Of a stretch of 64,000 nt of DNA, positions 10,540-15,782 are shown one piece after another (position 1 is the first letter of the stretch; each line of letters starts with the position of its first letter). Made by a program: the position numbers and the translations under genes. Origin of the DNA: Candidatus Nitronauta litoralis. Its GTDB lineage: Bacteria; Nitrospinota; Nitrospinia; Nitrospinales; Nitrospinaceae. Below the pieces are notes generated by a model. The model ran no database searches. It was given only the letters and a program-made list of their open reading frames with translations, and was not told the origin of the DNA. The stretch lies in contig CP048685.1 in assembly GCA_015698285.1 (NCBI GenBank), forward strand, positions 3,784,060 to 3,848,059. Direction: 5' to 3'.

Positions 10540-10950
10540 TTAACCGCAGGTTACAGAAATCGGAACCGTACCGGTGTTTGTGATCCGAACCAGACCACTG
10601 ATATCGCCGATGGAGTCGCCACGGCTGAACTCATTCTGCTTGGTCAGGACAACTTTTTTATGGCCCATGCTGTGCTTGTTGGCCATGCCCACTTTGCGCT
10701 CACCTTCAAAACCATTGTGCTCAGCCGGTCCCAAGGTGATCGGAACAGTAGTGGCATTTACAGATTTCCAAACCACTGCGTTCGCATTACTGCGGTCGCC
10801 AGCATTAGATGTTCCTTGGGCTTCCAGAGTGATGCTGTTGGCATTGTTACATTCGGTTTTGTCCCCAGGATTGATGGTACCAGCGTATGCCGTCATAGCA
10901 AAACACAGAGCAACAACCGTCATGATAGAAACCAACGTGAACTTTTTCAT
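10540..10950 (-). CDS. Small secreted protein of unknown function
   Basis: I do not recognise this 136-residue protein. It has a clear Sec signal peptide (MKK, hydrophobic core, AYA cleavage near residue 23). The mature part is polar and rich in Asn, Thr, Ser and Gly, with few aromatics. It has one cysteine near the mature N-terminus (ECNN) and one at the penultimate position (TCG), which could form a disulfide joining the two ends. A strong ribosome site (GGGAGG, 4-5 bases before the ATG), a 431-base upstream region and a strong terminator suggest a single, well-expressed gene. A small beta-rich periplasmic or extracellular protein is a guess from composition. Confidence 0.75.
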   Translation of the reverse strand: MKKFTLVSIMTVVALCFAMTAYAGTINPGDKTECNNANSITLEAQGTSNAGDRSNANAVVWKSVNATTVPITLGPAEHNGFEGERKVGMANKHSMGHKKVVLTKQNEFSRGDSIGDISGLVRITNTGTVPISVTCG

Positions 10951-11381: not shown

Positions 11382-12740
11382 CTAGTTTCGCAATACACAG
11401 TCCTTTAGAACCGCCCCTTCCTCAATTACGAGGGGCTTCGTAGTTCCATTCAACTGGACCACCCCCTGTAAGGTGGCCCTACCTTTGAAAATCACATCCC
11501 CTTCTATTTCCAGCCTTTTTAATTCCAGCATCCCGGGAATTACCGGGATCCGCTTTTCAAAATCCCGGGTATCTTCCAGGGGACCATTTAAAGAAACCTC
11601 TGGCAACCCCTCAAGACATCTTTCCGGATTGAGTTCAAGGTTGCCTTCTCTTTCAATATAAATATCCGATTGCACACGCAATAAATCGCTGGTGGTTTTT
11701 ACTGGAGCAAACCGGGAGCGGGAAACCACCAGCCCCACCGAATCTTTAAAGCACTCCAACCCGGCACCCACTGCCGTTTCAAGTTGAATCACCTTTTCAC
11801 CCTGGATTGTTTTACGGTTGGCAATAATCGGCAAATCCATCAAGCCCTCATTAAGTCTCTTTTTTAGTGAGGGCAAATGAATCCAGATATTATTGGTGTT
11901 AAAAACCTTAAACTTTTCCATCCCCTGGAATTCCTTCACATGCTCCGGAGGAACGTTTCCTAATTCCAGAAGTTTCAAACGACCTTGATCCTGATAAACC
12001 GTTCCGCCTTTTAAATCAGCAGTGGTCTTGGGGGTCAGTTCCATAAGAAAGGGAATGTTGTTTTTAACAATATGGTTTAGAATTTTTTCGTCTACAGCTG
12101 CCCCAAGATTGTCCGCGTTTGAAACAAACAAAACTTCTTTCCCCTCATCGAGCCAGCCGTCCAAAAGCCCCTGCTCCTCAATGCAACAATACAAATCCCC
12201 ATGTCCCGGAGGGTACCAGGTATTCTCTCCAAAACTTTCCAGTTGGAGGGGCAAAAGTGATTTTTCATCAATCCTTGGGAACCTGTTTTGCTGAAAACAT
12301 GTCAGGGGGATTTTTGAAAAAAAAGATTCAACCAGTTTTAAAGTTTCATCGTGTGTGTAGAAACTGTTCATCAAGCTTAATGCTACAGAGGCCTTACTTT
12401 GAAGGTGCCTGACTTGATCTCCAATTAGCTCGAGAAACGACTTTCCATTTTTAACAACAATTGCAGATTTGGGCCCCTGGCATCCCATGCTCGTTCCCAG
12501 TCCACCGTTTAACTTCAGCACCACCAGTTTCTTGTGGAGTTCAGTACTTTTGCCGGCATCAGGGTCTTCAAGATTCTCATAAGGAAATAAATGGGAACTG
12601 TCCGGTGTACAAACAGCTGACCAGTCCTGCACCAACGAGGGTCCCGAAAGAAATTTTCCGTACAAACGTAAATACTGGTCCAAAGCCTGCTTCGGCATCC
12701 CCAATTCACTTAATGCCTTCTTTACATTGGAATCGATCAA
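11382..12740 (-). CDS. UTP-glucose-1-phosphate uridylyltransferase, eukaryote-type UDPGP family
   Basis: Makes UDP-glucose from UTP and glucose 1-phosphate. The 452-residue protein belongs to the long UDPGP family typical of eukaryotes, not to the short bacterial GalU family. The nucleotide-binding loop LNGGLGTSMG is at 77-86, followed by GPKSAI and later by VSNADNLGA near residue 215; the C-terminal part reads like a left-handed beta helix. It starts at a TTG (12740) with GAGG six bases upstream. The related UDP-sugar and UDP-N-acetylhexosamine pyrophosphorylases share the fold, so substrate is likely but not proved. It is divergent from the tandem paralogue genes. Confidence 0.88.
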   Translation of the reverse strand: MIDSNVKKALSELGMPKQALDQYLRLYGKFLSGPSLVQDWSAVCTPDSSHLFPYENLEDPDAGKSTELHKKLVVLKLNGGLGTSMGCQGPKSAIVVKNGKSFLELIGDQVRHLQSKASVALSLMNSFYTHDETLKLVESFFSKIPLTCFQQNRFPRIDEKSLLPLQLESFGENTWYPPGHGDLYCCIEEQGLLDGWLDEGKEVLFVSNADNLGAAVDEKILNHIVKNNIPFLMELTPKTTADLKGGTVYQDQGRLKLLELGNVPPEHVKEFQGMEKFKVFNTNNIWIHLPSLKKRLNEGLMDLPIIANRKTIQGEKVIQLETAVGAGLECFKDSVGLVVSRSRFAPVKTTSDLLRVQSDIYIEREGNLELNPERCLEGLPEVSLNGPLEDTRDFEKRIPVIPGMLELKRLEIEGDVIFKGRATLQGVVQLNGTTKPLVIEEGAVLKDCVLRN

Positions 12741-12832: not shown

Positions 12833-13507
12833 ATGTTGATTTTCAAAAAAAACATTTATTTTATCAATTACTCATTCAATCGAAAGGCTCCTTTTGGAAT
12901 TGAAAGAGGTGATAATGAGGGCCCAAAACCAATAGCCTACAACTTCATTTTTTCTTCTCTTGCCAATGACCGGAGTCTGTTCATTGAACTCCAGAAAATG
13001 CCGCCCCCCCTGGCGGCTGAGCGCATCAAAATGTTTTTCCCCAATGCCAGCAGATTCGGAACCCCGGCAATTCTAAACCGGATGTCGAAGCGATTGCTCA
13101 AAGCCCTCCTGAATCACAGGGTATGGTACCAGATGAATTGCTATCATTTTTGTTATCTTTACGACACGCTTATGGAACTGGTCGAGGATTACAGTTATGG
13201 TGACCGAAATTTCAGGGAAAACCTGATGCCTGAACTCAAGGGGCAACCTATTAACTTTAATCAATTCCTTAACGAATATTTTTTCCACACTGCATTTCTT
13301 ATTGACCCGGGTCGCTTTAACAGCATGTCCACAAAAGACCGGTTACGCCTGGGTAAAATTGACCACAGCCTGCTGGGTGTCTTACCCATCCCTGAAGCAT
13401 CACCGGATGATGAAGATGTAACCCTGCAGAAAGTCATCAATAAAATTCCTCCCACTCCAGCAGAAATGGAACTTGATATCTACCCGGGAAACCCCTATTT
13501 ACGCTGA
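12833..13507 (+). CDS. Unrecognised protein, tandem paralogue A
   Basis: I do not recognise this 224-residue family. It has no signal peptide and no membrane segment, and is probably cytoplasmic. The centre carries a conserved block, WYQMNCYHFCYLYD at 98-111, preceded by FFPNASRF and followed by PELKG and FFHTAFLID. The next gene has the same blocks in the same order, and both proteins begin MLIFK-x-NIY, which supports this start although no Shine-Dalgarno is seen. The first 60 residues differ between the two. Conserved Trp, Tyr, His and Cys in one block could mark a ligand site, but that is speculation. Confidence 0.75.
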   Translation: MLIFKKNIYFINYSFNRKAPFGIERGDNEGPKPIAYNFIFSSLANDRSLFIELQKMPPPLAAERIKMFFPNASRFGTPAILNRMSKRLLKALLNHRVWYQMNCYHFCYLYDTLMELVEDYSYGDRNFRENLMPELKGQPINFNQFLNEYFFHTAFLIDPGRFNSMSTKDRLRLGKIDHSLLGVLPIPEASPDDEDVTLQKVINKIPPTPAEMELDIYPGNPYLR

Positions 13508-13576
13508 CCTCTCATTTAAAGTTCCCGTTTCATAAGAGGTTCACTGTTTTCAGGCGTCGTTAATAATCAATAAACC

Positions 13577-14191
13577 ATGCTCATCTTCAAAACCAATATC
13601 TACGAAAATGAATCATCTCCCAACCCCTTTTCAAATTCGGTGAAATCATTAAACGAGGCTTTACACCTGTCAAAGTTTATTGAGTCGTCACTCAAAGACG
13701 ACCTGAGCTATCTCGAAAACTTTGACCATTGCCAGGAAGGTCTCCCCCCTGAAGAGTTGGAAAATTTTTACCCGAAAGCCCACAAATTCGCAAAGTCTTC
13801 AATGGTCCAAAGACTTCTCGCCATCTTAATTGAAGGGCTGAATGATCAAAAAACCTGGTACAGGATGAACACATACCACTTTTGCCTGCTCTATGATTGT
13901 CTGAAACGGCAAGTATATTTGTACAATACAGATGACTTAATAAAAAAACTAAGACTGTGCCCAGAAATGAAAGGTAAAAACATCCAGTTCGAAAAATTAA
14001 TCGAGAGGCTGTTTTTTAATACAGTGTTTCTAATGGACAAGGAACAATATGATTTCCTGAGCCATGAGGATAAAATAGAGTTGGGATTCACCTGCCCCAG
14101 CGAGTTCGGTGTCCTCCATGGTCTTATCCCAAACCTGGAGGAAATGAAACTGTTACCTGAACCCGGTTTTTCCTATACCATGGGTGTATAA
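13577..14191 (+). CDS. Unrecognised protein, tandem paralogue B
   Basis: A 204-residue protein similar to the gene just upstream. Shared features in order: MLIFKTNIY at the start; FYPKAHKF; WYRMNTYHFCLLYD at 94-107; PEMKG; FFNTVFLMD; and a C-terminal GVL...EM.L...PG..Y pattern. By eye roughly three in ten positions match, so the duplication is old or the copies have diverged fast. There is no signal peptide or membrane segment, and no enzyme motif I can name. It ends 40 bases before the nnr gene on the same strand and may be cotranscribed with it. Confidence 0.75.
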   Translation: MLIFKTNIYENESSPNPFSNSVKSLNEALHLSKFIESSLKDDLSYLENFDHCQEGLPPEELENFYPKAHKFAKSSMVQRLLAILIEGLNDQKTWYRMNTYHFCLLYDCLKRQVYLYNTDDLIKKLRLCPEMKGKNIQFEKLIERLFFNTVFLMDKEQYDFLSHEDKIELGFTCPSEFGVLHGLIPNLEEMKLLPEPGFSYTMGV

Positions 14192-14231: not shown

Positions 14232-15782
14232 TTGAAAAATATTTTCACAGCCGAAGAAATGCGCAAAGCCGATTCTTTGACCATACGGGATATTGGAATC
14301 CCCGGGATTGTCCTTATGGAGAATGCGGGAGCCGGAATCGTGTGTGCTATGGAAAAAAAGATAGATAATCTCAAACGAAAAAAAGTGCTGGTGGTGTGTG
14401 GGAAGGGCAATAATGGAGGCGATGGCTTTGTGATCGCCCGCCTCCTACTATTAAAAGGCTTTCATGTCCAGGTGGTTCTACTTGGGGAAATCAAGGACCT
14501 TGCAGGGGATGCGCGCACCAACGCCGAGGTAGCCCGCAATATGAAAGTCCCATTGTATGAAACGGGTAAAGGAAATTCCCGGGAACTGTCTCATGCCATG
14601 CGCCACACCCAAATAGTAGTCGATGCGGTTTTTGGAACAGGACTCACTCGAAAAGTTGAGGGGCCCGCTGCCAAAGTAATCCGGCAATTGAATACCCTGG
14701 GAAAATTCACCGTAGCCGTCGATATCCCGTCAGGAATCGACTCTGATACGGGTCAGTTATCCGGCCCGCATATCCAGGCAAATCTGACACTGGCGCTGGG
14801 AGCCTACAAACGCAGCCATTTTTTATTTCCGGCGGCTGAAGCTATGGGACAACTTGAGTTGATCGACATTGGAATTCCTCACTCTGTTATGGACGGTTTT
14901 GAAGAAAGCGTTTCGTTATTGGAAGCGCAAGACATCCTGGCTTGTTTCCCTGAAAGAAAACGAAACAGTCACAAGGGGACCTATGGACACCTTCTGATCC
15001 TTGCAGGATCAAAGGGTAAGGGAGGAGCCGCTGGGTTGACTGCACTCTCCGGGTTACATTCAGGCGCAGGGCTTGTCACTCTGGGCTGTCCGGAATCTAT
15101 GATTCCCTCGCAGGAATGGCATCCCATGGAAGTGATGTCCCTGCCTTTGCCTGAAACGGGGACAGGAGCAATGGCAGAAAAAGCAGCCGAACCAACTCTT
15201 GAGGCTCTGAAAGGAAAAAATGCACTGGCGATCGGGCCTGGGCTTGGGACCTCGCCTTCCACATTGAAATATCTGGAAGCCTTGCTGCCCGGAATTAGCT
15301 GCCCTATGGTCATAGACGCCGATGGGCTCAATCTACTGGGAAAGAAAAAGTCTCTGCTCAATCAGCTACCAAAGGGCACTATCCTGACTCCACATCCAAA
15401 AGAAATGTCGCGCCTCACAGGGTTGTCCACACCCGTTATCCAGAAGAACCGCCTAAAAACCGTTCAGGATTTTTGTACGCAATTTAAAGTCATCCTTGTT
15501 CTAAAAGGAGCACACTCCCTTATCGGCCTACCGGATGGTCGTATTCGGATCAATCCTACGGGAAACGCCGGGATGGCCACTGGAGGGTCGGGAGATGTCC
15601 TGACAGGTTTAATTGGCGGGTTCCTCGCACAAGGTTTGCCGCCTGAAAAAGCTGCCCTGGCGGGAGTGTATCTGCATGGGCTGTCTGGGGATATCTACAC
15701 TCGTCAATTGTCAGAACGATCACTTATTGCAGGAGACCTTATTGATCACCTGCCGACTGCCATCAAAGAGGCCTTGGGCTGA
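14232..15782 (+). CDS. nnr: Bifunctional NAD(P)HX epimerase / ADP-dependent NAD(P)HX dehydratase
   Basis: Repairs hydrated, damaged NADH and NADPH. The 516-residue protein fuses two enzymes: the N-terminal YjeF epimerase (about 1-215), with CGKGNNGGDGF at 56-66 and a VDIPSGIDSDTG motif; and the C-terminal ribokinase-like dehydratase (about 225-516), with TPHPKEMSRLTG and the ATP/ADP-site GGSGDVLTG. The start is TTG at 14232, with AAGG about eight bases upstream, giving the usual KNIFTAEEMRKAD opening; the first ATG would cut into the domain. The last base of its stop codon is the first base of the tsaE ATG. Confidence 0.95.
   Translation: MKNIFTAEEMRKADSLTIRDIGIPGIVLMENAGAGIVCAMEKKIDNLKRKKVLVVCGKGNNGGDGFVIARLLLLKGFHVQVVLLGEIKDLAGDARTNAEVARNMKVPLYETGKGNSRELSHAMRHTQIVVDAVFGTGLTRKVEGPAAKVIRQLNTLGKFTVAVDIPSGIDSDTGQLSGPHIQANLTLALGAYKRSHFLFPAAEAMGQLELIDIGIPHSVMDGFEESVSLLEAQDILACFPERKRNSHKGTYGHLLILAGSKGKGGAAGLTALSGLHSGAGLVTLGCPESMIPSQEWHPMEVMSLPLPETGTGAMAEKAAEPTLEALKGKNALAIGPGLGTSPSTLKYLEALLPGISCPMVIDADGLNLLGKKKSLLNQLPKGTILTPHPKEMSRLTGLSTPVIQKNRLKTVQDFCTQFKVILVLKGAHSLIGLPDGRIRINPTGNAGMATGGSGDVLTGLIGGFLAQGLPPEKAALAGVYLHGLSGDIYTRQLSERSLIAGDLIDHLPTAIKEALG

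Follow-up and report, generated by a model that had tools for sequence, protein, structure and literature searches.

Two ancient tandem paralogues from a protein family without a name, largely restricted to a single order of Nitrospinota

The window, that is the whole stretch of 64,000 nucleotides analysed here from Candidatus Nitronauta litoralis, contains two adjacent genes, A and B, that lie on the same strand with 69 nt between them. They are flanked by a divergently encoded UTP-glucose-1-phosphate uridylyltransferase on the side of A and by an nnr-like gene on the side of B, as follows.

11382 to 12740, reverse strand: UTP-glucose-1-phosphate uridylyltransferase (UGPase, PF01704; Pfam E 1.4e-139), divergent neighbour of A
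12833 to 13507, forward strand: gene A, 224 amino acids (aa), short branch A of the family (open reading frame, tree clade, AlphaFold model)
12833 to 12859, forward strand: N-terminal peptide MLIFKKNIY of A, a family-wide motif; the first ten-residue block has a pLDDT of 83 and is followed by a low-confidence linker
13124 to 13165, forward strand: WYQMNCYHFCYLYD block of A, residues 98-111, the W, N, Y and D of which are conserved family-wide
13577 to 14191, forward strand: gene B, 204 aa, short branch B of the family (open reading frame, BLASTP to A, AlphaFold model)
13577 to 13603, forward strand: N-terminal peptide MLIFKTNIY of B, the same family-wide motif, with a DSSP bridge at residue 2 of the model
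13856 to 13897, forward strand: WYRMNTYHFCLLYD block of B, residues 94-107, modelled as a strand (94-96) and then a helix (99-118)
14232 to 15782, forward strand: nnr-like gene, an open reading frame that starts 40 nt after the end of B; the name comes from the original prediction and not from a profile

A and B are ancient tandem paralogues. BLASTP aligns them with 66 of 185 positions identical (36%) at an E-value of 3e-31, so that chance does not account for their likeness, and this bears out the original prediction, according to which the two adjacent open reading frames are tandem copies of an unnamed family. The four sequence blocks named in that prediction are all present in both proteins, namely the MLIFKxNIY start, the WYQMNCYHFCYLYD/WYRMNTYHFCLLYD block, a PE-x-KG block (PELKG and PEMKG) and an FF-x-T-x-FL-x-D block (FFHTAFLID and FFNTVFLMD). 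The accompanying claim that the proteins differ over their first 60 residues needs correction, as residues 1-9 are nearly identical and variability is confined to about residues 10-36. Both A and B are real genes under purifying selection, with omega values, from three close pairs each, of 0.06-0.11 (A) and 0.10-0.12 (B). In the window's genus, identity to the two congeners amounts to 84% and 88% for A but is lower for UGPase (55% and 70%) and nnr (62% and 73%).

A separate observation concerns B in that genus (g1), where it looks to be under relaxed or fast evolution. It is just 41% identical to the sole congener copy (13577-14191 versus L044:3399-4004), and it was not found in the third species of the genus. 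No omega is given for B within the genus, since synonymous sites are near saturation in genus-level pairs. A promoter and terminator scan returned four promoter-like sites against 3.3 expected and five terminator-like sites against 2.8 expected.

That no known family would be recognised was also anticipated, and profile libraries indeed place neither A nor B. Curated cut-offs served as the criterion for Pfam-A and NCBIfam, and wherever such a score is given the match falls short of it. In Pfam-A, A matched no family and B three below threshold, among them Acyl-CoA_ox_N (E 0.08); over 75 short proteins the best matches were DUF6964 and HAMP_N3 (E 0.0026, in three and two members, respectively), none of them recurrent, and over 10 long members nothing consistent emerged. 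In NCBIfam, A had no match, B had one at 13.8 bits against a cut-off of 385, and 10 long members gave scattered weak matches only. The anti-phage defence models of PADLOC-DB gave four scattered families over 75 members (best E 0.014), none of which identifies the family, and no PHROG family matches A or B. Thylakoid formation protein Thf1 (PF11264), a helical protein family, matched one of the 10 long proteins at E 0.044 over 50 residues, but at 13.9 bits against a gathering cut-off of 27, and the other nine long and the 75 short proteins had no match to it. Searches of viral contigs with the short and long profiles, and of plasmids for A, returned no relative, and a literature search found no paper that describes the family. 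It could be assigned to no known family and is in that sense new as a family, with no claim to a new mechanism.

The two genes represent two branches of a family with few members outside a single order of Nitrospinota. A profile of 75 A- or B-type proteins matches 66 of 77 genomes of the phylum, comprising all 64 of the window's order and two of the 13 others of the class, and a profile of the long paralogues matches 65 of the 77. Judged by best E-value, a short copy (A or B type) is present in 54 of the 64 order genomes, and the remaining ten show none. The family can thus be called order-wide, but the A/B pair is not universal. Those ten are mostly incomplete genomes, although one of them (G015) is 97% complete. 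The window's own genome, a single contig of 3.92 Mb, has four members, which are A, B and two encoded elsewhere, of 288 and 284 aa. Genomes of the order typically also carry two paralogues of about 290 aa, and some a third. The duplicated pair of the original prediction thus stands as a pair of tandem paralogues but has to be seen within a larger family, which has four or five ancient paralogues.

Among the 47 related loci recovered by pattern scan, 43 are titled Nitrospina, Nitrospinaceae or Nitrospinota, and three are titled Nitrospirae or Nitrospirota and match genomes placed in the window's order. Reach across phyla was assessed by one degenerate-pattern contig scan, which performs best for A/B-like proteins and which a long-branch relative in another phylum could escape. 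Mapping in related genomes, as had been proposed, showed that relatives keep the pair, the order of A before B and the WY-MN block. Two outcomes had been set beforehand as refuting the prediction, placement in a known family and absence of the WY-MN-YHFC block from relatives, and neither occurred. One further locus (L073), which has UGPase, A, a GPx-like gene and B and falls among the Nitrospinota rows, bears the title Emcibacteraceae (Pseudomonadota); its contig is probably misbinned. A distant single member (L101:1435-1872, forward strand) lies at a contig end in another family of the class (G067), where it is preceded by what is presumably a phosphoenolpyruvate-utilising enzyme.

The branches were delineated in a tree of 135 rows, built by a quick method with SH-aLRT support and without bootstrap. 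Support is 100 both for the A clade (43 rows) and for long clade D (12 rows), 98 for long clade E (27 rows) and 86 for a further long group, C (10 rows). The B rows group less firmly, and two fast rows from the window's genus are unplaced. Each clade spans several of the order's families, which indicates that the split between A and B predates those families.

The joint alignment of 134 sequences, 82 short and 52 long, has as its family-wide elements the N-terminal MLxFxK[ND]I, W94, N98-x-Y100, D107 and F151. At the N-terminus, the conserved residues are M1 (132 of the 134 sequences), L2 (131), F4 (125) and I8 (131); in the middle of the proteins they are L39 (132), P66 (130), L84 (126), W94 (123), N98 (129), Y100 (118) and D107 (128), and further on Y116 (126), Y145 (120), F146 (122), F151 (134), L192 (129) and Y200 (129). 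At position 7, 79 of the 82 short proteins have Asn and all 52 long ones Asp. The original prediction had read the duplication and the kept Trp/Tyr/His/Cys block as pointing to a small binding function, which is possible. A binding site shared through the His and Cys of YHFC is not supported, since position 101, which is His in 81 of the 82 short proteins, is Tyr in 35 of the 52 long ones, and Cys103 is off the family-wide list. The only polar positions common to the whole family are Asn98, Asp107 and Asn/Asp7. Because the shared core is otherwise aromatic and structural, a structural or binding role is favoured over shared catalysis, and the pattern of conservation suggests that the family consists of structural or binding proteins rather than enzymes.

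AlphaFold2 models, built on alignments of the window proteins plus the proteins of related loci, are confident, single-domain and helical, with matching elements in A (pLDDT 84.1, pTM 0.83) and B (pLDDT 87.8, pTM 0.85), and both proteins look soluble. In the B model, residues 1-10 have a pLDDT of 90 and precede a linker below 50, and DSSP assigns strands at 94-96 and 193-195 in addition to the bridge at residue 2. Together, the DSSP assignments and the model confidence are consistent with a putative N-terminal latch. Comparisons of the models with known folds gave no usable match, be it by Foldseek against the PDB (best E-value 2.5 with B and 3.6 with A, no probability above 0.04), by Foldseek against BFVD (best E 2.6) or by VIA-align, in which B had no Z of at least 2 and A a best Z of 3.1 (rmsd 4.0, 95 residues aligned). 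Sequence profiles searched against PDB chains were likewise unconvincing, the short profile reaching at best E 0.36 and the long one E 0.037. The missing PDB match is not proof of a new fold, and the family might still correspond to one absent from the searched lists.

The neighbourhood of A and B was counted over 48 loci, the window plus the 47 related ones. Both genes are present in 32 of them, always with A first and on one strand, and in 22 of those 32 they are separated by a glutathione-peroxidase-like gene (PF00255 in L069) on the opposite strand; A is at a contig edge in two of the 48 loci and was not found in five. Where the upstream side of A is covered, in 41 loci, the next gene is the divergent UGPase in 30 and a co-directional glycogen phosphorylase in 11, with UGPase beyond it in seven of the 11. 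Measured from profile-match ends, the gap between the glycogen phosphorylase gene glgP (PF00343) and the downstream, co-directional A is 30-58 nt in 13 genomes; in G022, where no A was found, glgP is located 192 nt before B. These 14 genomes are spread over families f1, f2 and f4, which suggests that the glgP-A arrangement is old. The nearness of UGPase, on the other hand, proves little by itself, because the region from uppP to ptsN, in which several gene names are read from sequence and are not profile calls, is syntenic across the order. Among the neighbours of A and B, only the close co-directional spacing of glgP and A exceeds this background. Neither A nor B contains a recognisable part of glycogen phosphorylase or UGPase, although these enzymes are their neighbours in many genomes.

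The place directly before the nnr-tsaE-lpt run, to which the original prediction had drawn attention, belongs to the shared synteny, and the upstream neighbours, glycogen phosphorylase and UGPase, are more telling than that side. An operon with nnr-lpt was considered and rejected as a general rule, since the gap between B and nnr is at least 1 kb in several loci and reverse-strand genes lie between them in L069. PF00343 had no match in 19 of the 64 order genomes, including the near-complete G013 and G021, which have kept A and B, and in the window genome its matches are only low-scoring and elsewhere than A/B. No UGPase of the PF01704 family was found in G067, where a family member is present. 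Between uppP and UGPase, most loci have a gene for a small protein (window 10540-10950, reverse strand) with a signal-peptide-like start and no Pfam match.

The long branches have surroundings of their own. A radical SAM/SPASM gene (PF04055, E 3.7e-9; SPASM model TIGR04085 at 26.6 bits in one enzyme and 30.1 in another, cut-off 27) is encoded divergently to branch E, and its product reaches no NCBIfam equivalog cut-off. This enzyme occurs in 53 of the 77 phylum genomes (e.g., L145:6392-7453 and L147:6566-7630, both on the forward strand) and comes in two types, with identities to the G012 protein of about 77-100% and 63-70%. Type I, defined by at least 77% identity to that protein, has 42 matches in 39 genomes, and 18 of the matches are without an adjoining long paralogue; it adjoins one in 24 genomes, always divergently and with 254-446 nt between. 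Type I is present in 25 of 27 E-clade genomes versus none of six tree genomes without an E row (Fisher p 2.5e-5, with kinship ignored and only genomes in the tree counted). At E 1e-20, no radical SAM enzyme of this kind was matched in the window genome (G000) or in G001, G020, G022, G031, G042 and G043. In several genomes the second type has its own conserved neighbourhood (L173-L176, L179, L180), with no family member nearby. Two neighbour links exceed general synteny, glgP-A and E-radical SAM/SPASM. In addition, of 13 loci examined for the non-D long gene, 11 contain hflKC genes (HflK by NCBIfam in L145). Of the 12 loci of D, 11 have a gene for a small conserved protein in the vicinity, and five have a phosphoglucomutase-like gene (PF02878, E 4.4e-22) there.

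The explanation that we prefer, tentatively as a whole, is that the family consists of non-enzymatic partner proteins, of which A and B would serve glucose-1-phosphate/glycogen metabolism. What it says of the family and its structure is very probably correct. The N-terminal peptide would fold back so as to contact the WYxMN and C-terminal segments, and the three conserved stretches together might act as a latch, holding the helical bundle and forming the binding surface. Each paralogue would be an adaptor or allosteric regulator with a client of its own. The clients of A and B would most likely be glycogen phosphorylase and UGPase, at the glucose-1-phosphate node, so that the pair would tune glycogen turnover; for branch E, the likely partner would be the divergently encoded radical SAM/SPASM enzyme. 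This last link leaves A to D unexplained, given that the window genome is without such an enzyme at the threshold used. Nitrospina gracilis stores glycogen, according to PMC3578206. A function of A and B at the glycogen node, to which their neighbours point, is nevertheless doubtful.

The paralogues could also be helical ligand sensors or regulators, each of which would control its own neighbours, with no common role in glycogen metabolism. The pairs would be the hflKC-side long gene with its neighbours, E with the radical SAM gene, D with a CBS protein and the small conserved protein, and A/B with UGPase and glgP. Regulator-target pairs are often divergent in the manner of E and its radical SAM gene in those 24 genomes, and each branch does have its own context, as with hflKC beside the non-D long gene; yet profile scans of the family recognised no DNA-binding or known ligand-binding domain, and Rfam detected only tRNAs, with no element other than a tRNA in eight E loci. 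We regard this reading as possible but rather unlikely. The assembly of the four or five paralogues into one lineage-specific complex, a hetero-oligomer, appears improbable. Most genomes of the order have retained several branches at once, and the tandem of A and B in 32 of 48 loci, always with A first, would suit such a complex; single branches have been lost, however, as shown by the five loci in which A was not found and by the loci of genus g2 and genome G002, in which B was not found, and in the window's genus B is fast at 41% identity while A is steady at 84%.

Catalysis by an unrecognised enzyme family using His101, Cys103, Asp107 and Glu130 would agree with the invariance of H101 and D107 and the near-invariance of E130 among the 75 short proteins, and with C103, which is nearly invariant in a narrower alignment (A1). 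The replacement of the His by Tyr in most long paralogues, the absence of Cys and Glu from the family-wide list and the small set of shared polar positions argue against it, and we consider it quite improbable. Least probable, and indeed very unlikely, is that the proteins are substrates or chaperones of the radical SAM/SPASM enzyme and are modified post-translationally on the N-terminal peptide. The divergent linkage of E to the enzyme gene and the conserved peptide anchored at residue 1 are what this would predict, but the seven genomes named above as having no match to the enzyme keep family members, and A and B are modelled as folded domains and not as short precursors. As for RiPP-like precursors, a linked radical SAM/SPASM gene exists for branch E in 24 genomes and not for A/B, and no short leader-core peptide was seen in proteins of about 200-300 aa, of which A and B have confidently folded models.

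The preferred explanation, non-enzymatic partner proteins with a client for each branch, has a bolder version, which we hold to be improbable. The N-terminal latch over a WYxMN pocket would be a ligand-dependent switch acting on partner enzymes, in a fold new to the PDB; A and B would gate the flow of carbon to and from glycogen at the glucose-1-phosphate node of nitrite oxidisers, and E would work with, or be matured by, a radical SAM/SPASM enzyme of no named type.

Nitrospina-type bacteria are major marine nitrite oxidisers according to PMC3578206. Of the nitrite-oxidation markers, PF02665 was found in neither of two genomes and PF14711 in none of 77, and these models may miss the oxidoreductase of this group. 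Because all 64 searched genomes of the order keep members of the family, usually several, under purifying selection, nameless and without a fold match, it offers an obvious way into the biology particular to these bacteria. The gene neighbourhoods point to two sets of enzymes, glycogen phosphorylase and UGPase for A/B and the radical SAM enzyme for branch E. Lastly, the D paralogue has in-frame stops in genus g8 (G017:C1:1058337-1059101 and G043:C79:19329-20162), where it may be decaying.
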